This document shows, in pieces, positions 12,728-22,771 of a stretch of 64,000 nt of DNA; position 1 is the stretch's first letter, and every line of letters starts with the position of its first letter. Origin of the DNA: an uncultured Methylopila sp. (GTDB lineage: Bacteria > Pseudomonadota > Alphaproteobacteria > Rhizobiales > Methylopilaceae); the NCBI GenBank assembly GCA_902168115.1, contig CABHPB010000063.1, positions 1 through 64,000 of the forward strand, given 5' to 3'. The notes under the pieces are model-generated. The model was not told where the DNA came from. It saw only the letters and a list, made by a program, of their open reading frames with translations, and made no database searches. Position numbers and translations under genes: made by a program.

Positions 12728-14113
12728 ATGAGCCAGAAACGCGTCCTGTTCGCGTGTGATCTCGACAGTCAGGTTTTCGGCGCGCTGCCGCTGGCGCGCG
12801 CCTTCGCCAAGCGCGGCTGGCACGCCGTGTTCGCGCTGGACCCGAGCAAGTCGCTGCCCGCCGTCGTCGCCGACCAGCTGGCGGGCGAGTTCGAGGTGAT
12901 GTCCCGGCCGGTCAATCTGCTGCCGTGCGAGCCGGACGCCTTCTCCTTCGACGCCATCGGCGTCTATGTCACCGGCAGCCGCATCTCGCTGTTCCGCCAC
13001 GCGCTGGAACTCGCCTCACGCGTCAGGAAGGGCCGTCGGCCGGCGCTGTTCTGCGGCTTCAACGGCCTCGTCTTCCAGAAGTTCGAGGAAGGCGCAGCCT
13101 GGCGCCTCGGCTATGACGTCGTCTGCCTGAACGGCCCGCGCGACCGGGACGACTTCGTCGACTTCGTGCAGGGCAGCGACTTCGCCGGCCAGCCCTATGC
13201 GATGGTCGGGCTGCGTCGCCGGCCCGACCTACCGATGCGCCCGCAGCGCCCGCCCCGCGCCGACGGCGGCCGAAAGACCTTCGTCTTCGCCGAGCAGGTC
13301 ATCGTGCCGCGCAGCCAGCGCGAGCGCCGCGCGCTGGTGGAGACGCTGATCGGGCTCGCCGAGCGGAGCCCGAACTGGGACGTCGTGATCAAGGGGCGCG
13401 TGCGTCCCGACGAGCAGACCTTCCACCAGCAGTCGATGCACATCGAGACGCTGGTGAACGAGTTTCCCGACCGCCCGCGCAACCTCATCCTCAGCTACGA
13501 CCCTCTGGGGCCCTGGCTCGAGATGGCGGACATGTTCGCGACCCTGTCCTCGACGGCCCTGTTCGACGCGCTGGACTACGGCGCGCCGAGCCTCGTCGTG
13601 ACGGACTTCGGCCTGCGCAACGCCGACGGCGCGCACGTGTTCTTCTCGAGCGGTCTCAGCGTGCGGCTGCATGAGCTGGCCTCTCTCGACGAGGCGCCGT
13701 GGCGCGAGCCGGACGCGCGCTGGCTGGACCGGGTCGGCTACGGGCCGAGCTCCTCGCCCGACGAACTCGTCGACCGGCTGGAGGCCTTCGATCCCGCGAC
13801 CCCGTTGCCGCCGTCCTTCGTCGCCTTCCAGGCGGCGGCGCAGGTCGCGACCGATTCCATGGACCGCGGCCCGGCCATGATCGCGGCGTGGACGGCCGTG
13901 AACGCGCTGATCCCCGCCGGCGGGTTCGGACCGGACGACGACCGTTCGACCGCCGAGGCCGCGCTTGAGGCGCTCGGCGCGACGATCGAGGAGATGCTCG
14001 TCCGACCCGGCGAGCCGGTCAACGACACGCCGCTCGCCGCCTTCATGCGCGCCCGCGGCATGTACTGGCTCTACAAGCGCGCCCGCCTGAAGCTCGGCCT
14101 GCCGATCCGGTGA
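12728..14113 (+). CDS. DUF6716-type putative glycosyltransferase, copy 1
   Basis: This 461-residue cytoplasmic protein looks like a GT-B glycosyltransferase: an N-terminal Rossmann-like start (KRVLFACDLDSQVFGALPLARAF), a second half beginning near KTFVFAEQVIVPRSQRER, a VVIKGRVRPDE block and the ATLSSTALFDALDYG motif resembling the S/T motif of bacterial sialyltransferases. The second half aligns by eye with the protein at 17726-19066 (FFEQPVIPARK, VLIKLRHGKGE, VTLSSTVAVEAMARG), so the two are paralogues flanking the nonulosonic-acid genes. The family name is from memory and the donor sugar is unknown. Confidence 0.65.
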   Translation: MSQKRVLFACDLDSQVFGALPLARAFAKRGWHAVFALDPSKSLPAVVADQLAGEFEVMSRPVNLLPCEPDAFSFDAIGVYVTGSRISLFRHALELASRVRKGRRPALFCGFNGLVFQKFEEGAAWRLGYDVVCLNGPRDRDDFVDFVQGSDFAGQPYAMVGLRRRPDLPMRPQRPPRADGGRKTFVFAEQVIVPRSQRERRALVETLIGLAERSPNWDVVIKGRVRPDEQTFHQQSMHIETLVNEFPDRPRNLILSYDPLGPWLEMADMFATLSSTALFDALDYGAPSLVVTDFGLRNADGAHVFFSSGLSVRLHELASLDEAPWREPDARWLDRVGYGPSSSPDELVDRLEAFDPATPLPPSFVAFQAAAQVATDSMDRGPAMIAAWTAVNALIPAGGFGPDDDRSTAEAALEALGATIEEMLVRPGEPVNDTPLAAFMRARGMYWLYKRARLKLGLPIR

Positions 14114-14224
14114 GGCGAACAGCTTACGTCGAGGGCTGAAGGGTGGAGTTGCACGGAACATTGTCGAGCGCTTAGGTTGTATTCCGATAGGGCTTCGCGA
14201 CCCTCGGCATACCGGATGCTCGCA

Positions 14225-15418
14225 ATGATCCAGCGAAGGTTTCTGTCCGCGGCCGCGATCCTCGCGCTGCTGGCGGCCGGGTCCGCCCACGCCGCCGAAC
14301 TGATCGGAACGCCGTTCTCCCTGGCCAGGAAAGTCGACTCCAGCACGTATCGCGGCCCCAATCTGACCGCTCGCGACAACGGCGAATTCGACTACGTGTA
14401 CGACGTGGTCGACTCGACTTCGGCGCCTGCGACCCACAAGGTTTTCCTCCAGTCGCTGGACAGGTTCGGCGCCCCGAAATCGGACCCCACGCTGGTCGTC
14501 ACCGGCGACTCGCCGATCTTCGTTCCGGCCGGTTCGCTGGCGCTCCCGAACGGCGGCTCGTTTGTCGGCTAGGTGCGGGAGCCGGGCGACACGGCCGCCG
14601 CCTTCGGCCGCACGGTCGGCGCGGACGGCGTCGTTGGGGACGAGAGGCTGATCGACGACAGCGTCAAGTCGGACATCTTCATCTCGAAGATGCTCACGCT
14701 GCCGTCGAGCTCCGTCGTCATCACCGACGGCGGCTATCACAAGTCGAAGAAAGACCGGACGAACTGCAATTTCGTCGAGGCCGACGGCTCAATCGTGAAG
14801 CCACAGGCGGACATCACCTTCGGCAACAAGAACATACGAACGACTACGACGTATCAGGACGGCTTGATCGTCAGTTACAACCGTGGGGCCAACAATCCCG
14901 ACTTCTTCAACGCGCAGATCCTGGACGGTCAGTGCAACAAGATCGGCGCGCTGAAGTCGATTTCGCTACACCGCGACGGCGCGAAATCGAACGGCGGATA
15001 CGCCCTCGGATTGACCGATGGGACCATCGCGGTCCTGCGCTTCTTCTACAAGAAGACAAACGCCTTCGTGACGGTCCAGCTCTTCGACGGAGAGTGGACC
15101 AAGAAGACGCCCGAGATGATCTTCGAGAGCGCGGCGCCCGGCTACGTATCGGCGTTCGTCGCCGTAGAGGGCGGGCGGCTGGCGGTCGCGTCGGTCACGA
15201 CCAACAAGGACGGCGCGCCGACCGGCATCACGGTGCAGGAGTACAACAAGAAGCTCAAACCGGTCGGCTCAGCGGCGAAAATGACCGGGTTGCGGTTTCC
15301 GACGATACGGCAGTTCGACGTCACGCCGGACGGAAAGCTGATCCTAGTCTACGGCGTGAATCACAAGAACGGATCGCGCGTCGATCTGTACGGGCAGCTG
15401 ATCGGCCCGGACATGTAG
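14225..15418 (+). pseudogene. Secreted beta-repeat protein gene interrupted by an in-frame TAG
   Basis: One continuous frame encodes a signal peptide (MIQRRFLSAAAILALLAAGS, then AHA) and about 370 further residues, but it is cut by TAG at 14570-14572. The sequence before and after (NGGSFVG, stop, VREPGDTAAAFGRTVGADG) reads smoothly if the stop replaces a tryptophan (TGG to TAG). It then matches the GG-FV-W...DG-V-G repeat style of extracellular beta-propeller-like proteins. Coding quality continues to the terminal TAG at 15416-15418. A GTG directly after the stop could restart translation, but the product would lack a signal. The base composition is less GC-rich than the neighbours. The function is unknown. 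Confidence 0.7.
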
Positions 15419-15438
15419 CGTCGCCGCGGCGGCGCGCC

Positions 15439-16668
15439 TCAGCCCTTCGGCGCGGCGGCGATCAGCTCTTCGCAGACCTCGCGAAGCGCGCCCCGTCCAC
15501 CGGGGGCGCTCGTCACGTAGCGCGCGACGGCCTTGGCCTCGGGCCGCGCGTCGGCCGGGGCGATCGGGAAGCCGACGGCCTGCATGCAGGCGAGGTCGTT
15601 GACGTCGTTGCCGACATAGGCGGTCTCGGCGCGGGTGATCCCGTGTTCGGCGAGCCAGCGGTCGAGCTCGGGCAGCTTGTCGTCGATGCCCTGCCGCACC
15701 TCGATAGCGAGCTTCTTTCCGCGCGCGGTGACGACGGGATTCGGCTCCTTCGACAGGATCAGCAGGCGGATGTCGCGCGCCTTGCGCAGCAGGCCGAAGC
15801 CCATGCCGTCGGAGCGGCTGGCGAACACCGCCTCGCGTCCGTCCTGGTCGACGAGCACGCGGTCGTCCGTGAACACGCCGTCGAAGTCCATGACGAGCGC
15901 CTTGATGTCCGCCGGCACGGGCGCGTTGCCGCGCTGGCCCTCGCGGAAGCCGAGGATCGTCTCGACCAGCTTGAAGTCCGCCTCGCTGTCGATCTCGACC
16001 GGCGGGGTGTCGACCGGCACGAGCTTGGCCGGGCCGCAGAAGCGCACGCCCGCGGCGCGGAAGGCGGTCGTCTCCATGGCGTAGACGGCGCCGGTCTCGC
16101 GATATTGCGGCGGCAGCTCCTGCCGGCGGCGGCGCGGCGAGAGGTGGTCATGGTTGACGCCGAAGGCGTAGCCGGCTCCGTCGACGCCCCAGAGGAACGC
16201 GTGGTCCGGAGAGGCGGTGAAGGCGCAGGACGCCCCGTCGCGCAGGATCGCGGCGGCGCAGGCGTCGATCTCGGCGGAGGTCGTGAAGGGCGAGGTGCAC
16301 TGCAGGAAGACGAGCGCGCGGACCGGGTCGCCCTCGGCCTCGATCATCTCCAGCGCATGCAGCAGCGCGCTTTCCGAGGACGCCGCGTCGCCGGAAATCT
16401 CCGCCGGGCGGTCGACGACCTCCGCGCCCGCGGCCCGGGCGGCGGCGGCGATCTCGGCGTCGTCAGTGGAGACGTAGACCGCGTCGACCAGCGCCGCGCC
16501 GAGCGCCGCGGCGATCGTGCGCGCCACCAGCGGCGTGCCGCCGAGCGGCCGGACGTTCTTGCGCGGGACCCCCTTCGATCCCCCCCGGGCGGGGATCACC
16601 GCAACGCAGCGCACTGGCTCGCTCCATAAAGCGGGGGCCGTTTCCGGCCCCCGATCAGACAAGGTCAT
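15439..16668 (-). CDS. CMP-nonulosonate cytidylyltransferase fused to a KdsC-like HAD phosphatase
   Basis: The product has 409 residues. Residues 1-235 form a NeuA-type cytidylyltransferase: AVIPARGGSKGVPRKNVRPL (CTP loop), VYVSTDDAEIAAAARAAGA, and SESALLHALEMIEAEGD with FLQCTSPF. Residues from about 250 form a HAD phosphatase of the KdsC type: VMDFDGVFTDD (nucleophile and acid aspartates), LLILSKEPNPVV and AYVGNDVNDLACMQAVG. The enzyme would activate a nonulosonic acid with CMP, while the HAD half could remove the 9-phosphate or 8-phosphate from the precursor. The same fusion order occurs in animal CMAS. It follows the neuB-like gene after 37 bases on the same strand. Confidence 0.88.
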   Translation of the reverse strand: MTLSDRGPETAPALWSEPVRCVAVIPARGGSKGVPRKNVRPLGGTPLVARTIAAALGAALVDAVYVSTDDAEIAAAARAAGAEVVDRPAEISGDAASSESALLHALEMIEAEGDPVRALVFLQCTSPFTTSAEIDACAAAILRDGASCAFTASPDHAFLWGVDGAGYAFGVNHDHLSPRRRRQELPPQYRETGAVYAMETTAFRAAGVRFCGPAKLVPVDTPPVEIDSEADFKLVETILGFREGQRGNAPVPADIKALVMDFDGVFTDDRVLVDQDGREAVFASRSDGMGFGLLRKARDIRLLILSKEPNPVVTARGKKLAIEVRQGIDDKLPELDRWLAEHGITRAETAYVGNDVNDLACMQAVGFPIAPADARPEAKAVARYVTSAPGGRGALREVCEELIAAAPKG

Positions 16669-16705
16669 GACGGCGCGGGGTCGCCGCGCCGCTTCATGAA
16701 AAGGT

Positions 16706-17581
16706 TCAGCTGACGGCGCGAAGGCCCGGCTGCCACTTGAGCTTCTTGCGCTGCACCTCTTCGATGTCGAGCACCTCCTTGCCCTTGAAGGTCAGCGCCT
16801 TCTCGACATTGTGGAGGTCGCGCACGAGGCGGCGCATGCCGTCCGGCTCGAGCGAGGCGGCGTGGTCGGTGCCCTTCCAGGTGCGGTCGAGCGTGAAGTG
16901 CCGCTCGACCCACTCCGCGCCGAGCGCGAGCGCCGCGACGTCGGCCGCGATGCCGAGGTGATGGCCGGAGAAGCCGATCGCCTTCACGCGGTCGGCGTAG
17001 CGGTCCTTCAGCGTCTCGATCTCGCGCAGGCAGATGTCCTCGAACGGGACCGGATAGCCCGAGGTGCAGGAATAGACGACGAGGTCCTTGGCGCGGCCGC
17101 GCTCCTCGTAGAACTTCACGACGCTCTCGATCTCGCCCTTGGTCGTCATGCCGGTCGAGACGTGGATCTCGCCCTCGTAGTTCTCGGCGAGGAAGCCCTG
17201 CAGCTCGTAGTTCAGGTTGGTCGCCGAGGGGATCTTGATGTTGTCGGGCTTGAGGCTCGCGATCTCGCGCGCGGAGGTCATGTCCCAGACCGAGGTCGAG
17301 TAGCCGATGCCCTGGCTCTGGCAGAACTCCTTGAGCTCGGCGTGCTGGTCCACGGTGAACTCCAGCGCCTCGCGATGCGCGCCATAGGTGTCGCCGTAGG
17401 AGTTGGCGGGGACCGGATGGGGCGCGTTGTACTGCGCCGGCGGCAGGAGCTCGCGGTTGTTCCGCTTCTGGAACTTGGCGTAGTCCGCCTTGCAGACATG
17501 CGCGGCGACGGAGATCAGCTCCTTCGCGACGTCCATCTGCCCCATGTGGTTGCAGCCGATCTCGGCGATCACTTTCACCAT
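16706..17581 (-). CDS. NeuB-family nonulosonic acid (phosphate) synthase, short form without SAF domain
   Basis: This 291-residue TIM-barrel synthase condenses PEP with a hexose or hexosamine. Motifs include IAEIGCNHMGQMDVAKELI, ADYAKFQKRNN, STSVWDMTSA, IKIPSATNLNY, HVSTGMTTKGEIES and VERHFTLDRTWKGTDHAASL. Typical NeuB proteins run to about 340-350 residues with a C-terminal SAF (antifreeze-like) domain; this one stops soon after VLDIEEVQRKKLKW and lacks it. ATG 17581 is chosen because GGAGAG is correctly spaced before it. With no NeuC epimerase nearby and a phosphatase domain on the partner enzyme, a phosphorylated substrate such as mannose-6-P or ManNAc-6-P is plausible but inferred. Confidence 0.86.
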   Translation of the reverse strand: MVKVIAEIGCNHMGQMDVAKELISVAAHVCKADYAKFQKRNNRELLPPAQYNAPHPVPANSYGDTYGAHREALEFTVDQHAELKEFCQSQGIGYSTSVWDMTSAREIASLKPDNIKIPSATNLNYELQGFLAENYEGEIHVSTGMTTKGEIESVVKFYEERGRAKDLVVYSCTSGYPVPFEDICLREIETLKDRYADRVKAIGFSGHHLGIAADVAALALGAEWVERHFTLDRTWKGTDHAASLEPDGMRRLVRDLHNVEKALTFKGKEVLDIEEVQRKKLKWQPGLRAVS

Positions 17582-17694
17582 CGTCACTCTCCAAAATCTG
17601 CGCCGCCGGGCCGGAACCCGGGGATCATCGCCTCGCGGCCTTGGGGTCGCGATACACCTGAAACGAACCGGCGTCAGCGCCGAAGCGGCGCAGG

Positions 17695-17720
17695 TTACAA
17701 AGTTCCGCCCGCAATTGTAA
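17695..17720. promoter_or_regulatory. Spaced inverted repeat upstream of the neuB-like gene
   Basis: TTACAA (17695-17700) and TTGTAA (17715-17720) form an inverted pair with centres 20 bases apart, about two helical turns, in the 144-base interval between the DUF6716-type gene and neuB. This interval is the only sizeable gap within the leftward glycan genes, so a second promoter here is plausible. No clear -35/-10 pair was identified. Confidence 0.3.
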
Positions 17721-17725
17721 TGGCG

Positions 17726-19066
17726 TCACGGTTTTTGGCGCCGGATGGACCCGACCTGACGCAACCTCGAGGCGACCGCGCCGATGAAGGTGAGGCCCCG
17801 CATCGGCCGGTCGAGCAGGTGCGGCGCATGCACCGCCACCGGGCCGCCGATGCCCAGCGCGTAGGCCACGAACCCCGCCGAGCCGTAGGCCGGCGCGAGC
17901 GGCCTCAGCGGCAGCGCGTGGCCGAGGCCGTCTTGCTCGGCGAGCAGGGTCGCGCAGCGGCCGAGCAGCGCCTCCGGCTCCGCGGCGGCGCCGGATCGCG
18001 CTTCCAGCCACGGTCGGCGCGCGACGTCCTGCATGTCCGGAGACAGGCCCGACAGCGGCGAGAAGCAGCCCGACCCGACGAAATAGGAGGTGCCGAGCGC
18101 CTCCGAGATGCCGAAGTCGGACACGATCCGCGTCGGAATCCCCCGCGCCATCGCCTCGACGGCGACCGTCGAGCTCAGCGTCACGACCAGCGAGGCGCGG
18201 TCCATCAGCGTATAGGCGTTCTCGTGGGTGAAGCGGAGATTGGCCGGCTGCGGGGTACGCGCGAACAGGTTCTTGGCGAGGTCCTCGAGATGGAACCGCG
18301 CCTCGTGATGCGCCGTCTCGCCCTTGCCGTGCCGAAGCTTGATCAGCACCTCGACGCCCGGCCGCCCGCGCGCGACGTCGACGAGGCCCGCCAGCAGATG
18401 GGTGCGCTGCATCTTCCTGGCCGGGATCACCGGCTGCTCGAAGAACACGATCGGGCCGCGCGCCTCCCCCAGCGCCGGCCGGCGCGCGCGGTCGACGCTC
18501 AGAAGGCCGGTGACGACCGCGTTCGAGGCGTCGACGCCGATCTCGCCGGCGGCCTCCTCGTAGAGCGCGCGCTCGCCTTCCGCGTTGAAGCACAGGACAT
18601 CCGCCGGCGCCCGGCTCATGTACCCGGCGAGGTGCTCGCTCAAAGCGAGGCCGGGCGAGGCGATCGCGATCAGCGGGCGGCGCTTCTGGCGCGCAAGGTC
18701 GCTGGCGTTCAGCGCGAGGAACAGCTCGCGCGCCCGCCCCCCGTCGACGACCGCCACCACGACGTCGCTGTCCCGGAACAGCTTCGAGCGCACCAGCGTC
18801 TCGGCCGAGGCGGTCGGGACGGTCTGGTTCACGCCGCCCTCGCGCAGCTGCCGGTCGGAGAGCTGCGCGGTCTTGCCGGCGGCGGCGAGCACGGCGATCC
18901 GGAGCGTCGCGCCCTCCGCCTCGAACATCCGGCCGACGACGACGGAGGTCCGCAGGAAGGAATCGAACGTGCCGAGCGCGAGCACCTGCCGGCCGGCGAA
19001 GCGCGCCTTCGCGGGCTCCTCGACGGCGGCGGGACCGGTCTCCGCGATGTCGACCGGGGCGCTCAA
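17726..19066 (-). CDS. DUF6716-type putative glycosyltransferase, copy 2
   Basis: The product has 446 residues with GT-B-like features: an N-terminal domain starting VLALGTFDSFLRTSVVVGRMF and a C-terminal domain with IVFFEQPVIPARKMQRTHLL, EVLIKLRHGKGE and LVVTLSSTVAVEAMARGIPT. It resembles the protein at 12728-14113 over the second domain. The TTG start overlaps the stop of the upstream sialyltransferase-like gene (TTGA), so it belongs to the same translational unit. It probably transfers or modifies the nonulosonic acid on a surface glycan; this is inferred from context and the S/T motif. Confidence 0.65.
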   Translation of the reverse strand: MSAPVDIAETGPAAVEEPAKARFAGRQVLALGTFDSFLRTSVVVGRMFEAEGATLRIAVLAAAGKTAQLSDRQLREGGVNQTVPTASAETLVRSKLFRDSDVVVAVVDGGRARELFLALNASDLARQKRRPLIAIASPGLALSEHLAGYMSRAPADVLCFNAEGERALYEEAAGEIGVDASNAVVTGLLSVDRARRPALGEARGPIVFFEQPVIPARKMQRTHLLAGLVDVARGRPGVEVLIKLRHGKGETAHHEARFHLEDLAKNLFARTPQPANLRFTHENAYTLMDRASLVVTLSSTVAVEAMARGIPTRIVSDFGISEALGTSYFVGSGCFSPLSGLSPDMQDVARRPWLEARSGAAAEPEALLGRCATLLAEQDGLGHALPLRPLAPAYGSAGFVAYALGIGGPVAVHAPHLLDRPMRGLTFIGAVASRLRQVGSIRRQKP

Positions 19067-20172
19067 CGTGCGGCTCCGGCGACGGGCGTGATGATGCGCA
19101 GGCGCGGGTTGAAAGCGTCGTGGACGGCGACGACGCCGGCGATATGCGCGGCGCGGCGGCGCAGATAGGAGGCGGGAAGCGCGATGCGCGCGATCTCGAG
19201 CTCCGGATCGAGCACGGACAGCGTGTCCGCCGCCGAGGAGGCGACGACGACGACCGCCGCCGGCCGCTCGCCTGCGTCGAGATAGTCAAGCTCGACCGGC
19301 GCGCCGGTCGTCACGAGCCGCATGCCGCCGGCCTCCGCGAGCGCGCGGACCTTGGCCGCGCCTTCCCCTCGATGCGGGCGGTAGACGATCGGGCCGCGGC
19401 CTTCAAGCCTCATGGCCTCGACCGCGCCCAGCACGAGCGCCCTGTAATCCTCGGGCGAACAGATGCCAGCCTCGGCGTGGTCGGCCCCCAGCAGCCAGAC
19501 CTCGCCCGGCGAGCGCCCCCCCTCCCCGCCGTCGCGCCAGGCCTCGTAACCATGCGCCGCGAGCCTGTCGGCCGGCGCGAGCCGCCCGGCCAGCACCGGT
19601 CCGTAGATCGTGAAGAAGGTCACGCTCGATGGATCGGCCGGCGGCCGCTCGCGGAAGAGCGAACGCGCCAGCGCCGTCCGGAACCAGTCGAGATCGAACT
19701 GCCCCGGCTCCGGGGCGTTGATCGGATCGCCGCGCCAGGCGGCGGCCTGCGGCGTCACCGAGCCGTCGTCGAGCAGCACGACCTCGTCGAAAACCATGCG
19801 GTCGACCAGCGTCCGCTGCGACACGTTCCGATAATCGCCGAACACCACCTGCCTGCGCCTGCCGCGGCCGAGCCGCGCGGCCAGCCGCTCCAGGCTCGCG
19901 CGGTGGAGAGCGTCGAGCGTGTCCTTGACGAGGCGCGGCGCAAGGCGCGGCGGCCGTGGGCGCCGCGCGTGCCGCACGACCTGCCGCCATGTTCCCTTGC
20001 GGGCCAGCAGCGTCTCGACGCTCGATCCCGCCGCCGCGTGCCGGTCGCCGATCAGCACGAGATCGGCGGGCCGCCCCGCCGCGGCGCGCTGCTCGACCGC
20101 GTTCATGTATTGCAGCGGCGAGGAGACGATGACGAGATCGACCTCCGCGCGCGCCGGCGACGGCTCAGCCAT
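19063..20172 (-). CDS. Putative sialyltransferase / polysialyltransferase-like protein
   Basis: The 369-residue product begins with VDLVIVSSPLQYMNAVEQ, the style of opening seen in bacterial GT52/GT38-type sialyltransferases. It carries the three short motifs of those families: an acidic D/E-D/E-G motif (VVLLDDGS), an HP-like motif in the form VYRPHRGE, and an S/S motif (VVVASSAADTLSVL). Together with CMP-sugar synthesis genes downstream it would transfer CMP-activated nonulosonic acid to a glycan. It overlaps the GT4 gene by eight bases upstream and the DUF6716-type gene by four downstream. The acceptor and linkage are unknown; the HP motif being HR is a deviation. Confidence 0.65.
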   Translation of the reverse strand: MAEPSPARAEVDLVIVSSPLQYMNAVEQRAAAGRPADLVLIGDRHAAAGSSVETLLARKGTWRQVVRHARRPRPPRLAPRLVKDTLDALHRASLERLAARLGRGRRRQVVFGDYRNVSQRTLVDRMVFDEVVLLDDGSVTPQAAAWRGDPINAPEPGQFDLDWFRTALARSLFRERPPADPSSVTFFTIYGPVLAGRLAPADRLAAHGYEAWRDGGEGGRSPGEVWLLGADHAEAGICSPEDYRALVLGAVEAMRLEGRGPIVYRPHRGEGAAKVRALAEAGGMRLVTTGAPVELDYLDAGERPAAVVVVASSAADTLSVLDPELEIARIALPASYLRRRAAHIAGVVAVHDAFNPRLRIITPVAGAAR

Positions 20173-21583
20173 TGGCCGCCATCCGGCCCGGCGCGTCGCC
20201 GGCGACCTCGTCCCAGACGCTCGCCAGCAGCCGCGCCAACCGCAGCGGCGCGTAGGCCTCGACCACCCTCGCCCGGCCCGCCTCGCCCATCCGCTCGCGC
20301 GCCTGGCGGTCGCCAGCGAGATCGACCAGCGCCTCGATGAAGGCGGCGCGGTCCGCCCGCTCCACGAGCCGCCCGGTCACGCCGTCCTCGACGGTCTCGA
20401 CCAGCCCGCCCGACCTGTAGGCGACGACCGGACGCCCGGCGGCGCCGGCCTCCAGCGGGACGCGGCCGAAAGGCTCCGCCCAGAGCGTCGGCAGCGCGAC
20501 CACGTCGCAGTCACGGTAGAGCTCTTTCAGCGCCTCTCCGGAGACATGGCCGTGCAGCCGCACGCGATCGCCCAGATGATTGCGGGCGATGACCGCTTCC
20601 ATCGTGGCCTGGGTCGCGCCGCGCCCGGCGAAGTCGATCCGCGCGTTCGGGATGCGCGCGAACAGCTCCTGCCAGCCGCGCAGGAGATGCAGCTGGCCCT
20701 TGTTGTGCGTCAGCGAGCCGACGACGAGGATCGAGAACGCGTCCTTTTCAGGCGAAAGAACGTGCCCCGGCAGTTCGACCGGCTCCAGCGGCAGGCGGCG
20801 CAGGCGCCCTTCGGGCGTGACGGGCTCGAGCGTGCCGGCGAGGTGCCGGCTGGTGGCGATCACCACCGAGGCCCGTCGCAGGCAGGTCTGGCGATAGGCG
20901 AGCGCGGCTTTGGCGCAGCTCATGGCGAGCCGGCCGCGCATGCTGAGCGCCCCGGCCCCCGGCGCGGGCGCCAGCGACTGGTCGAACTGCAGGCTCGTGA
21001 AGCGGTGGTCGCGCACCAGCGCGACCAGCGGCGTGTCGGCGCCCGAGAGCACGTCTGCCGCCATCATGATGGAGCGCGCGTTGTCGGCGTGCACGACCGC
21101 GGGCTTCAGCCGGTCGAGGATGTCGCGGATCTCCGGCTGCGCGCGGCCCTCCGGAACCGTCGCATGCGCCATCCGGATGCCGCCCGAGGGGGGACCGGCG
21201 AGCTGCAGGGCGAGCGCCGGTCCGTGGATCCGCGGATTGCGCAGGCCGAGCGCCGCGGCCTCGGTGACGAAGCGGCGCCACTTCACGCCGTAGCGCCGGC
21301 GTTTCAGCCGGTCGACCTCATGTTGGGAAAGCCGGTGCAGCGGCCAGGCGGCGCTCATCGGCAGCGCGATGACGTCGACGCCGTCGACCTCGCGCCGCTC
21401 GGCGCGGTCGAGGCTCTTGTCGAAGGTGACGACCACCGACTGCTCGCGCAGAGGCTGCTCGCGCATCAGCAGATGGAGGCTGAGCTCCGCGCCGCCGGCG
21501 GCGTCCGGCGGATAGCGGTCCGACAGCACGACGACGCGGCGCGGACCGATCGCGGATACGATCTCCTCGAGCCCTGCGTCCAC
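20165..21583 (-). CDS. GT4-family glycosyltransferase
   Basis: This 472-residue GT-B enzyme shows RVVVLSDRYPPDAAGGAELS at the N-terminus. The C-terminal nucleotide-sugar domain has SILVVGSLTHNKGQLHLLRG, VRLHGHVSGEALKELYRDC, and the EX7E block PTLWAEPFGRVPLEAGAAGRP followed by GGLVETVEDG. These are hallmarks of GT4. GTG 21583 is preferred, with GGAAGG a few bases upstream; longer readings add a hydrophobic segment without support. It overlaps the sialyltransferase-like gene and opens the leftward glycan unit. It probably adds a neutral sugar to the same polymer. Confidence 0.85.
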   Translation of the reverse strand: MDAGLEEIVSAIGPRRVVVLSDRYPPDAAGGAELSLHLLMREQPLREQSVVVTFDKSLDRAERREVDGVDVIALPMSAAWPLHRLSQHEVDRLKRRRYGVKWRRFVTEAAALGLRNPRIHGPALALQLAGPPSGGIRMAHATVPEGRAQPEIRDILDRLKPAVVHADNARSIMMAADVLSGADTPLVALVRDHRFTSLQFDQSLAPAPGAGALSMRGRLAMSCAKAALAYRQTCLRRASVVIATSRHLAGTLEPVTPEGRLRRLPLEPVELPGHVLSPEKDAFSILVVGSLTHNKGQLHLLRGWQELFARIPNARIDFAGRGATQATMEAVIARNHLGDRVRLHGHVSGEALKELYRDCDVVALPTLWAEPFGRVPLEAGAAGRPVVAYRSGGLVETVEDGVTGRLVERADRAAFIEALVDLAGDRQARERMGEAGRARVVEAYAPLRLARLLASVWDEVAGDAPGRMAANG

Positions 21584-21730
21584 CCTCGACCTTCCGTCCT
21601 GCAACGCCCGGCCGCTCCGGGCCGATGTCGGGAGGCAATAGCACGGCGCGGCGATTGCGAAAGCCGCAAGCGGCAAGATTTGCACGTCAGGCGGGAGAGA
21701 TCCGGCGGGTCGGCTTCCGCAGCGCCGGCC

Positions 21731-22771
21731 TTACGCCCTGGCGGGCTCGGCGCTGGCGTAAAACTCCTTGAACGTAATCAGCTTCTGGCTGGCCTCGTCC
21801 CACAGCGAGAGAGGGACGCAGTTGAGGCTCTGGCGCAGGGTCACGCGGCCGATGTCGCGAAGCTCGGGGAAGGCCCGCAGCACTTTCGGCAGGTTGTAGA
21901 ACGGGATGCGGCTCGACAGGTGATGGACGTGGTGGACGCCGATGTTCGCCGTCAGCCAGTCCAGCCATGCCGGCATGTGGTAGTAGGAGCTGCCGTAAAG
22001 GGCCGCGTGCGAGGCGCTCCAGTCGTCGTCCTTGCGCCAGTGCGCGCCATCGAACTGGTGCTGGACGAAGAACAGCCACACGCCGATCGTGGCCGCGAGA
22101 ACGACGATCGGCAGCTGGATCATCAGGAACGTCGCGGGCCCGACGGCCCAGACGAGCAGCGCCGCGACCGCCGCGATTCCCAGATTGGTGCCCATCGTGC
22201 TCAGCCACAGCGCCCGCCCGCTGCGCATGAAGCCGACCGGCAGCCGGCCCTGGAGCAGGAAGACGTAGCTCGGCCCGATCCCGAACATCACCAGCGGGTT
22301 GCGGTAGAGCCGGTAGCGCAGGCGCCCCCAGCGCGAGCGCGCGCGATATTCGGCGACCGTCAGCGTGTCGATGTCGCCGACCCCGCGGCGGTCGAGATTG
22401 CCGGAGGTCGCGTGATGGATCGCATGGCTGCGCCGCCAGTGCTCGTAATCCGTCAGGGTCAGCACGCCGACGATGCGGCCGACCCAGTCGTTGGCGTTGC
22501 GGGTCGCGAAGAACGATCCGTGTCCGCAATCGTGCTGCACCATGAACAGGCGCAGCAGCAGGCCCGCCGCCGGCAGGATCAGCGCCGCATAGAGCCAGCC
22601 GAGCTCGTAGCTCAGCGCGACCGCCATGGCGGCCCACGCTAGCGCGAACAGCACGATCGTCAGACCGAACTCGAACACGCTGCGCGAGGTGTCCGGGGTC
22701 TGGAAGGGGCGAAGCGACCGCCTCAGCTGATCGGCGTCGATGCTTTTGTCTTCGATCTCGGCCGCAGCCAT
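21731..22771 (-). CDS. Membrane fatty-acid desaturase
   Basis: This 346-residue integral membrane di-iron desaturase has the three histidine boxes HDCGH (about residue 80), HWRRSHAIHH (about 112) and HVHHL (about 275), with four or more hydrophobic spans. The pattern fits the omega-6/delta-12 fatty-acid desaturase group, often DesA-like. It would introduce double bonds into membrane lipid acyl chains, using O2 and an electron donor. It lies upstream of the glycan genes on the same strand with a 147-base gap, so co-transcription is possible but not evident. Confidence 0.87.
   Translation of the reverse strand: MAAAEIEDKSIDADQLRRSLRPFQTPDTSRSVFEFGLTIVLFALAWAAMAVALSYELGWLYAALILPAAGLLLRLFMVQHDCGHGSFFATRNANDWVGRIVGVLTLTDYEHWRRSHAIHHATSGNLDRRGVGDIDTLTVAEYRARSRWGRLRYRLYRNPLVMFGIGPSYVFLLQGRLPVGFMRSGRALWLSTMGTNLGIAAVAALLVWAVGPATFLMIQLPIVVLAATIGVWLFFVQHQFDGAHWRKDDDWSASHAALYGSSYYHMPAWLDWLTANIGVHHVHHLSSRIPFYNLPKVLRAFPELRDIGRVTLRQSLNCVPLSLWDEASQKLITFKEFYASAEPARA

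Follow-up and report, generated by a model that had tools for sequence, protein, structure and literature searches.

The window analysed here is the whole 64,000-nucleotide stretch of one contig of G000, the draft genome of an uncultured Methylopila sp. (154 contigs, 98.44% complete, 3.73% contamination). It contains a six-gene locus that is predicted to build and transfer a nonulosonic acid, probably ketodeoxynonulosonic acid (Kdn) activated with cytidine monophosphate (CMP). Five of the genes lie on the minus strand in the 5' to 3' order GT4, ST, DUFb, NeuB, and NeuA-KdsC, with the sixth, DUFa, convergent to them. They encode a GT4-family glycosyltransferase of 506 amino acids (20165..21685; Pfam Glycos_transf_1, 116.5 bits), a sialyltransferase-like (ST-like) protein of 369 amino acids (19063..20172) that its AlphaFold model, fold matches, and motifs mark as a predicted CMP-nonulosonate transferase, DUFb, a second DUF6716 protein of 446 amino acids whose structure model has a GT-B fold (17726..19066; PF20471, 200.8 bits), a NeuB-family nonulosonate synthase of 293 amino acids without a SAF domain (16706..17587; PF03102, 232.3 bits), which is a predicted Kdn-9-phosphate (Kdn-9-P) synthase, and a NeuA-KdsC fusion of 409 amino acids (15439..16668), identified from Pfam, NCBIfam, and PDB matches as a CMP-nonulosonate synthetase joined to a HAD phosphatase. 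DUFa, a putative DUF6716 glycosyltransferase of 461 amino acids, lies on the plus strand (12728..14113; PF20471, 179.9 bits). The ST frame overlaps that of DUFb by 4 bases and that of GT4 by 8 bases, which suggests an operon-like arrangement. An initial annotation of the window had the same genes and strands; its end at 21583 falls on an internal start of the GT4 frame, whose full extent may reach 21685.

In the NeuB protein, PF03102 covers residues 25-266 and the Pfam scan shows no SAF domain, while the same scan detects SAF in the second NeuB of G000 on contig C80. The frame closes 37 bases ahead of the NeuA-KdsC start as called. Among related loci, here the best 80 of at least 578 confirmed NeuB relatives as ranked by similarity and not a random sample (eight are one genus-level group and several are metagenome bins), every NeuB frame (80 of 80) stops no more than 11 residues away from where the profile of SAF-less members ends. 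Together these observations bear out the absence of SAF reported in the initial annotation. The protein scores 200 bits against the N-acetylneuraminate synthase equivalog TIGR03569 (NnaB; cut-off 399.65) and 137.5 bits against the PseI equivalog TIGR03586 (cut-off 340.25), and so falls short of both. Residues K37, K117, H208, and H229 (numbering of alignment A1) pair with lysines and histidines of the meningococcal enzyme in the PDB alignment, and H208 and H229 are invariant in 10 of 10 orthologues. Meningococcal NeuB holds the N-acetyl group of N-acetylmannosamine (ManNAc) through an arginine in its SAF domain; a SAF-less enzyme would fit a substrate that has no N-acetyl group.

The partner of NeuB is a two-domain protein. 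CTP_transf_3 matches residues 22-153 of the fusion and a KdsC-type HAD domain occupies residues 255-404 (TIGR01670, 94.5 bits, just under the cut-off of 106.95); the HAD domain is also under the KdsC-type cut-offs of NCBIfam. The N-terminal half, approximately residues 21-243 (15940..16608, minus strand), matches solved CMP-N-acetylneuraminic acid (CMP-Neu5Ac) synthetases in the PDB (6ifd, 1eyr, 1qwj), and the C-terminal half, approximately residues 255-406 (15451..15906, minus strand), matches KdsC-type phosphatases (3mmz, 3ewi, 4um5). D261, D263, S306, K331, and G353-N354-D355 are invariant in all ten aligned sequences (the window protein and nine orthologues). We take D261, D263, S306, K331, and D355 to be the HAD catalytic residues, and their invariance leads us to predict that the C-terminal domain is an active phosphatase. 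The fusion of NeuA to a KdsC-like phosphatase, another element of the initial annotation, is thereby confirmed with its HAD motifs intact. The order of the two domains is like that of vertebrate CMAS, and the entries 1qwj and 3ewi, which presumably represent the halves of a vertebrate CMAS, each match the corresponding half of NeuA-KdsC. The phosphatase module of vertebrate CMAS is an inactive tetramer interface, whereas the HAD catalytic residues are intact here.

Structural modelling points to a nonulosonate transferase in the same gene row. With the AlphaFold model of the ST-like protein (pLDDT 83.8), Foldseek ranks 1-5 in the PDB are all sialyltransferases at moderate TM-scores (0.39-0.56), and VIA-align superposes it on the bacterial polysialyltransferase 5wc6 with Z 21.9 and a root-mean-square deviation of 6.2 over 333 aligned residues at 11% identity; the next types of entry, other sialyltransferases and uridine diphosphate N-acetylglucosamine (UDP-GlcNAc) 2-epimerases, reach at most Z 17.0. 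We take 5wc6 to belong to family GT38. The D/E-D/E-G and HP motifs of (poly)sialyltransferases are used as defined in PMC5811610. Three sialyltransferase motifs had been claimed at first; two are exact, with DDG and AS[S/T] present in 8/8 orthologues, and the third is altered, with R-P-H-R at the place of HP in the same 8/8, while the fold supports the assignment. The protein therefore has its fold and its D/E-D/E-G and S/T motifs in common with the bacterial polysialyltransferase (5wc6/5wcn) and with Neisseria NST (2yk5), and differs from them in having PHR instead of HP and no sequence-level match: its profile finds no sialyltransferase chain among PDB sequences, the sole match being an unrelated phycobilisome linker at E 1.2. 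From the model we predict that it works like a CMP-nonulosonate transferase; replacement of HP by PHR in all eight orthologues keeps it outside a GT38 filing. Both DUF6716 proteins score far over the family cut-off of 27 bits (PF20471), which upholds the two paralogues described earlier. Against PDB sequences, the DUF6716 profile reaches a best E of 0.046. A PHROGs search gave no match for any of the three transferases, and the literature searched makes no mention of DUF6716.

The cluster is conserved among close relatives. Across 297 genomes of the order, DUF6716 matches 46 at E 0.001, 19 over the cut-off, and 10 with a best E < 1e-40; these ten carriers are 8 of the 11 same-genus genomes listed together with G044 and G127 from other families. 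All ten have the NeuB and NeuA-KdsC pair, and all eight same-genus carriers retain the order NeuA-KdsC, NeuB, DUFb, ST, GT4. Occurrence in 8/11 genomes of the genus and the retained gene order suggest more than chance. DUFa adjoins the cluster in seven of the eight and is about 245 kb away in G076. NeuB has 68% identity in G044 and G127, with NeuA-KdsC at 49 and 52% and DUF6716 also kept; no match to ST or GT4 was obtained within the 19.9 kb taken from each.

Beyond the order, the 80 loci (NeuB identity 66-98%) span, going by their record titles, Alphaproteobacteria, Bacteroidota, Verrucomicrobia, and a few other lineages that include Anaerovibrio and two archaeal bins. NeuB has a NeuA-KdsC fusion nearby in 61/80 loci (53/72 outside the group of the window), and in 53/80 the fusion is within 300 bases of it; DUF6716 exceeds 60 bits in 23/80. 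With the epimerase queries used, frames resembling Epimerase_2 occur in only three of the 80 (L105, L140, and L127, the last weak), and a NeuC-type epimerase only in L105, where a second NeuB and an unfused NeuA accompany it. Ten of 72,556 plasmid records carry the SAF-less NeuB type at 66-70% identity, with the next at 39.6% among the matches listed; four of the ten are labelled 'N-acetylneuraminate synthase family protein' and one 'Sialic acid synthase', with the rest unnamed. They include two Sinorhizobium fredii strains with NeuB, the fusion, and DUF6716 in a row; a Kdn-containing polysaccharide from an S. fredii strain appears as an entry in the reference list of PMC9000132. In S. meliloti ml28, a gene annotated as an alpha-2,3-sialyltransferase, with a CST-I match, comes next after the row. 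In Nonomuraea gerenzanensis (L155, 6633-8825), a single 730-amino-acid frame combines cytidylyltransferase, HAD, and NeuB. Pfam places the cytidylyltransferase at 55-262 and NeuB at 477-712, and the HAD domain at 274-425 reaches 187.5 bits with our own profile, with Pfam HAD matches under their cut-offs. The NeuB part is 39.6% identical, and a DUF6716 gene of 443.5 bits lies about 2.2 kb away. This triple fusion links the three activities as parts of a single pathway. In the gammaproteobacterium Methylomagnum, the version is unfused, with NeuB beside a separate HAD protein; on its plasmid (L158, 3847-9459), NeuB and the stand-alone HAD lie near transketolase halves, a class III aminotransferase, and a short-chain dehydrogenase/reductase, a set that perhaps makes a different ulosonate. 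For the NeuB of a Streptomyces plasmid (L157), no fused or neighbouring match to NeuA-KdsC or DUF6716 was found. The enzymes that the initial annotation called non-standard are so only in a relative sense, given that close relatives of the NeuB/NeuA-KdsC pair occur in records of several phyla.

A NeuB-family synthase, a HAD phosphatase, and a CMP synthetase are encoded together at the locus, which is the gene content of a Kdn-9-P pathway. In the proposed route, SAF-less NeuB would condense mannose-6-phosphate (Man-6-P) with phosphoenolpyruvate to Kdn-9-P, the C-terminal HAD domain of NeuA-KdsC would dephosphorylate this to Kdn, and the N-terminal NeuA domain would convert Kdn to CMP-Kdn; the ST-like protein would then put Kdn on a cytoplasmic-side glycan acceptor built with GT4, to which the two DUF6716 proteins would add further residues. 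We infer which substrate and sugar are involved, in what order the residues are transferred, and to which acceptor; as none of the cluster's own genes encodes an exporter, our guess for the acceptor is a lipopolysaccharide core or another surface glycolipid. A phosphorylated route, as put forward in the initial annotation, is the best reading of the intact HAD motifs, the absence of the searched ManNAc routes in several carriers, and the recurrence of genes of mannose-6-phosphate isomerase (PMI) type. Judged from the genes, the full NeuC-independent Kdn route to CMP-Kdn is probable, and some form of phosphorylated route is likelier still. The Kdn branch is favoured over Neu5Ac because ManNAc sources are absent in several carriers and PMI-type genes lie in or beside the cluster.

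The link to Man-6-P comes from two kinds of gene. PF01050 (type II mannose-6-phosphate isomerase) matches in 9/10 carriers, including 7/7 of the other same-genus carriers and excluding G000, and five of these matches are short stand-alone frames of 122 to 202 amino acids. In three of the ten carriers, a stand-alone PF01050 cupin lies inside the cluster, in the gap between NeuB and DUFb in G034 and G076 and between the DUF6716 genes in G044, a placement far from chance, as the cluster spans about 10 kb and the genomes about 4 Mb. Inspection by eye shows that all three retain the conserved histidines and glutamate of the ManC cupin. The second kind is an AGE-family (PF07221) gene, which lies 1 base to about 2 kb from NeuB in 7/80 loci (two of which, L096 and L097, have a full ManC-type gene too) and also occurs in a Maritalea plasmid cluster. 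The mannose-6-phosphate isomerase of Rhizobium belongs to the AGE family; this clue is nevertheless weaker than the cupins because an AGE protein may also be a ManNAc-forming epimerase, and the literature searched on AGE-type mannose-6-phosphate isomerases held nothing that settles the question. Type I isomerases do not appear as a source of Man-6-P, with PF01238 and PF20511 matched in 0/10 carriers; bifunctional phosphoglucose/mannose-6-phosphate isomerases were not searched.

Several observations weigh against the Kdn route. The phosphatase scores 83.5 bits against the Kdn-9-P phosphatase equivalog NF058599 (cut-off 180) and is therefore not classed as such, and the likeness to proven Kdn-9-P synthases (BT1714, P. 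parvum) is one of gene content. In 19/80 loci, the stretch examined has no NeuA-KdsC fusion. AGE-family neighbours could be ManNAc producers instead, and both AGE and NanE are present in G127. The draft genome G000 has no PMI of the three Pfam families PF01238, PF20511, and PF01050, and the ManC of its relative G215 was not found in it; the gene may fall in a gap of the assembly, or the isomerase may belong to another family. NeuB specificity also need not be absolute, since a capsule locus of Serratia marcescens that pairs neuA with a longer neuB, of a different NeuB type, gives KDN:Neu5Ac at about 20:1 according to the available part of PMC9000132.

The alternative that survives best is an animal-like route in which NeuB would use ManNAc-6-phosphate (ManNAc-6-P) to make Neu5Ac-9-phosphate, which would then be converted to Neu5Ac and CMP-Neu5Ac. 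It would use the phosphatase with identical logic, and it has a precedent in Leptospira, for which the available text of PMC3438082 proposes an animal-like route from an extra C-terminal domain of NeuB (in its terms a phosphatase domain, also endonuclease-like) and reports detection of Neu5Ac. Precursor supply is where this route is least convincing. NanE and AGE are absent in 8/8 same-genus carriers and each occurs in only 1/10 carriers, both in G127, where the AGE-family gene lies beside NeuA-KdsC; that genome speaks for the Neu5Ac route. G034, G076, G111, and G269, each with 100% completeness, are unmatched for Epimerase_2, NanE, and AGE and so have no known source of ManNAc or ManNAc-6-P. 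With PMI-type cupins inside three clusters as well, we consider the Neu5Ac route unlikely, although it deserves more weight than the alternatives below.

The usual bacterial NeuBCA route could instead operate in trans, with ManNAc supplied by a NeuC encoded elsewhere and the HAD domain kept only as a structural module, as in CMAS. The initial annotation reported no NeuC epimerase and named, as something that would refute its route, a NeuB accepting only unphosphorylated ManNAc together with a neuC elsewhere. No NeuC lies in the locus, but the genome does have one NeuC-family epimerase match, on contig C80. There, at about 119000-123500 (L006, 11034-15450), lie a NeuA, a NeuC-type epimerase, a SAF-bearing NeuB, and a protein without a Pfam match. 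G215 and G235 carry an epimerase like it. The NeuC of C80 thus adjoins another NeuB of SAF type and a plain NeuA of its own, and Epimerase_2 is unmatched in half of the carriers (G034, G076, G111, G269, and G127); G193 and G044 have epimerases of a different type, with only 24 and 22% identity to that of C80. The other type of NeuB and the epimerase are neighbours in G000, G215, G235, and G252 (SAF was tested in the C80 protein only, and the second NeuBs of the other three were typed by a frame length of 359-363 amino acids and neighbourhood), which indicates that NeuC goes with that NeuB type. NeuC in trans is rejected as a general explanation on the five carriers without Epimerase_2, and the invariant HAD catalytic residues also argue against a merely structural domain, so that this arrangement appears very improbable.

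A further option is that NeuB receives ManNAc from one of the DUF6716 proteins, acting as a hidden UDP-GlcNAc 2-epimerase. In the structure search, the DUFb model (pLDDT 78.5, GT-B fold) comes closest to UDP-GlcNAc 2-epimerases, at Z about 22, and two proteins of epimerase-like fold in a locus without NeuC would be suggestive. Other GT-B glycosyltransferases also score Z 17-20, however, and comparison of the DUF6716 profile with five epimerases gives a weak match of 18.9% probability. The presence of DUF6716 in a minority of the 80 loci means that the NeuB/NeuA-KdsC pair often has no DUF6716 nearby, and ManNAc would leave the fused phosphatase unexplained; we give this option slightly less credence than NeuBCA in trans and regard it as scarcely plausible. 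It is equally hard to credit that NeuB makes another ulosonate (pseudaminic, legionaminic, or undescribed) from a different hexose or hexose phosphate: it meets no curated equivalog and its group stands apart among the plasmid matches listed (66-70% versus at most 39.6% identity), but no gene for a pseudaminic or legionaminic acid precursor is present among the 10 cluster and flanking proteins scanned, and those routes generally use unphosphorylated sugars and need no phosphatase.

Some features around the locus and in its relatives are recorded here for completeness. Between DUFa and NeuA-KdsC, a plus-strand frame at 14177-15418 encodes a protein that is predicted to be secreted, matches no Pfam family significantly, and is interrupted by an in-frame TAG at 14570-14572; only 12 bases separate DUFa and NeuA-KdsC in the relative G215 (L042), so that the frame looks like an insertion that is now broken. 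Just past GT4, at 21731-22771 on the minus strand, lies a DesA-like fatty acid desaturase (364.4 bits to NF052548, cut-off 500), also found past GT4 in L042, while the other six same-genus relatives have adenine deaminase directly after GT4. In Chenggangzhangella methanolivorans (L065, 4980-12933), each of the matches to GT4, ST, DUFb, and NeuA-KdsC is spread over more than one frame, perhaps through sequencing indels. An E. coli control genome also has a DUF6716 match over the cut-off.

If the Kdn route is correct, a NeuB group represented by at least 80 loci in several phyla makes Kdn and not Neu5Ac, and where environmental or plant-associated bacteria have been credited with sialic acid on the basis of their genomes, the claim would need a second look. 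The SAF-less NeuB together with NeuA-KdsC would then serve as a simple genomic marker for Kdn, and a donor sugar would be gained with which two uncharacterised types of transferase can be tested. The broader suggestion that many genes labelled 'N-acetylneuraminate synthase family' encode Kdn-9-P synthases is possible but doubtful. A phosphorylated bacterial route to Kdn is already known from its published Bacteroides counterpart (PMC6200933, available part). The elements that seem new are the wide spread of a module in which a SAF-less synthase is paired with a phosphatase and CMP synthetase fused to each other, the occurrence of isomerase genes and DUF6716 alongside this module, and the triple fusion. 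Among the titles and abstract openings listed in the literature searches, none described the combination of SAF-less NeuB and NeuA-KdsC, with most subscription papers outside those searches.

Known Kdn systems resemble the locus in different respects. Serratia marcescens KL1/KL2 have a two-gene neuA-neuB nonulosonate set with KDN in the capsule, and the available part of PMC9000132 mentions no neuC; it also mentions no phosphatase, which sets these loci apart. The extra C-terminal domains of the Leptospira NeuB (PMC3438082) and the Serratia NeuB (COG1082, PMC9000132), as described in the available parts of both papers, are possibly the same sugar-isomerase-type domain, in which case the Leptospira NeuB may by analogy be another Kdn candidate. 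A paper on Methanoperedens and salt reports that an enrichment contained pseudaminic/legionaminic acid and Neu5Ac; KDN is mentioned, in the part available, just as a reference, and the paper neither supports nor refutes the route. Streptomyces walls contain Kdn as teichulosonic acid according to the available text of PMC11481543; the triple fusion and DUF6716 gene of L155 make the actinomycete case alike, with the difference that the product there is a Gram-positive wall polymer, and the triple fusion may be linked to teichulosonic acid. The closest likeness in gene content is to the CMP-Kdn pathway of Bacteroides thetaiotaomicron and Prymnesium parvum (PMC6200933, available part), which shares the NeuB-family synthase and the CMP synthetase and has no NeuC step. 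The P. parvum Kdn-9-P synthase converts Man-6-P fully and ManNAc-6-P, ManNAc, and mannose not at all, and the B. thetaiotaomicron enzyme also uses Man-6-P. A HAD phosphatase is common to the locus and B. thetaiotaomicron, whereas the same text reports that no phosphatase homologue was found in P. parvum. The locus described here differs from both in that phosphatase and CMP synthetase, each with a predicted activity, form one protein.

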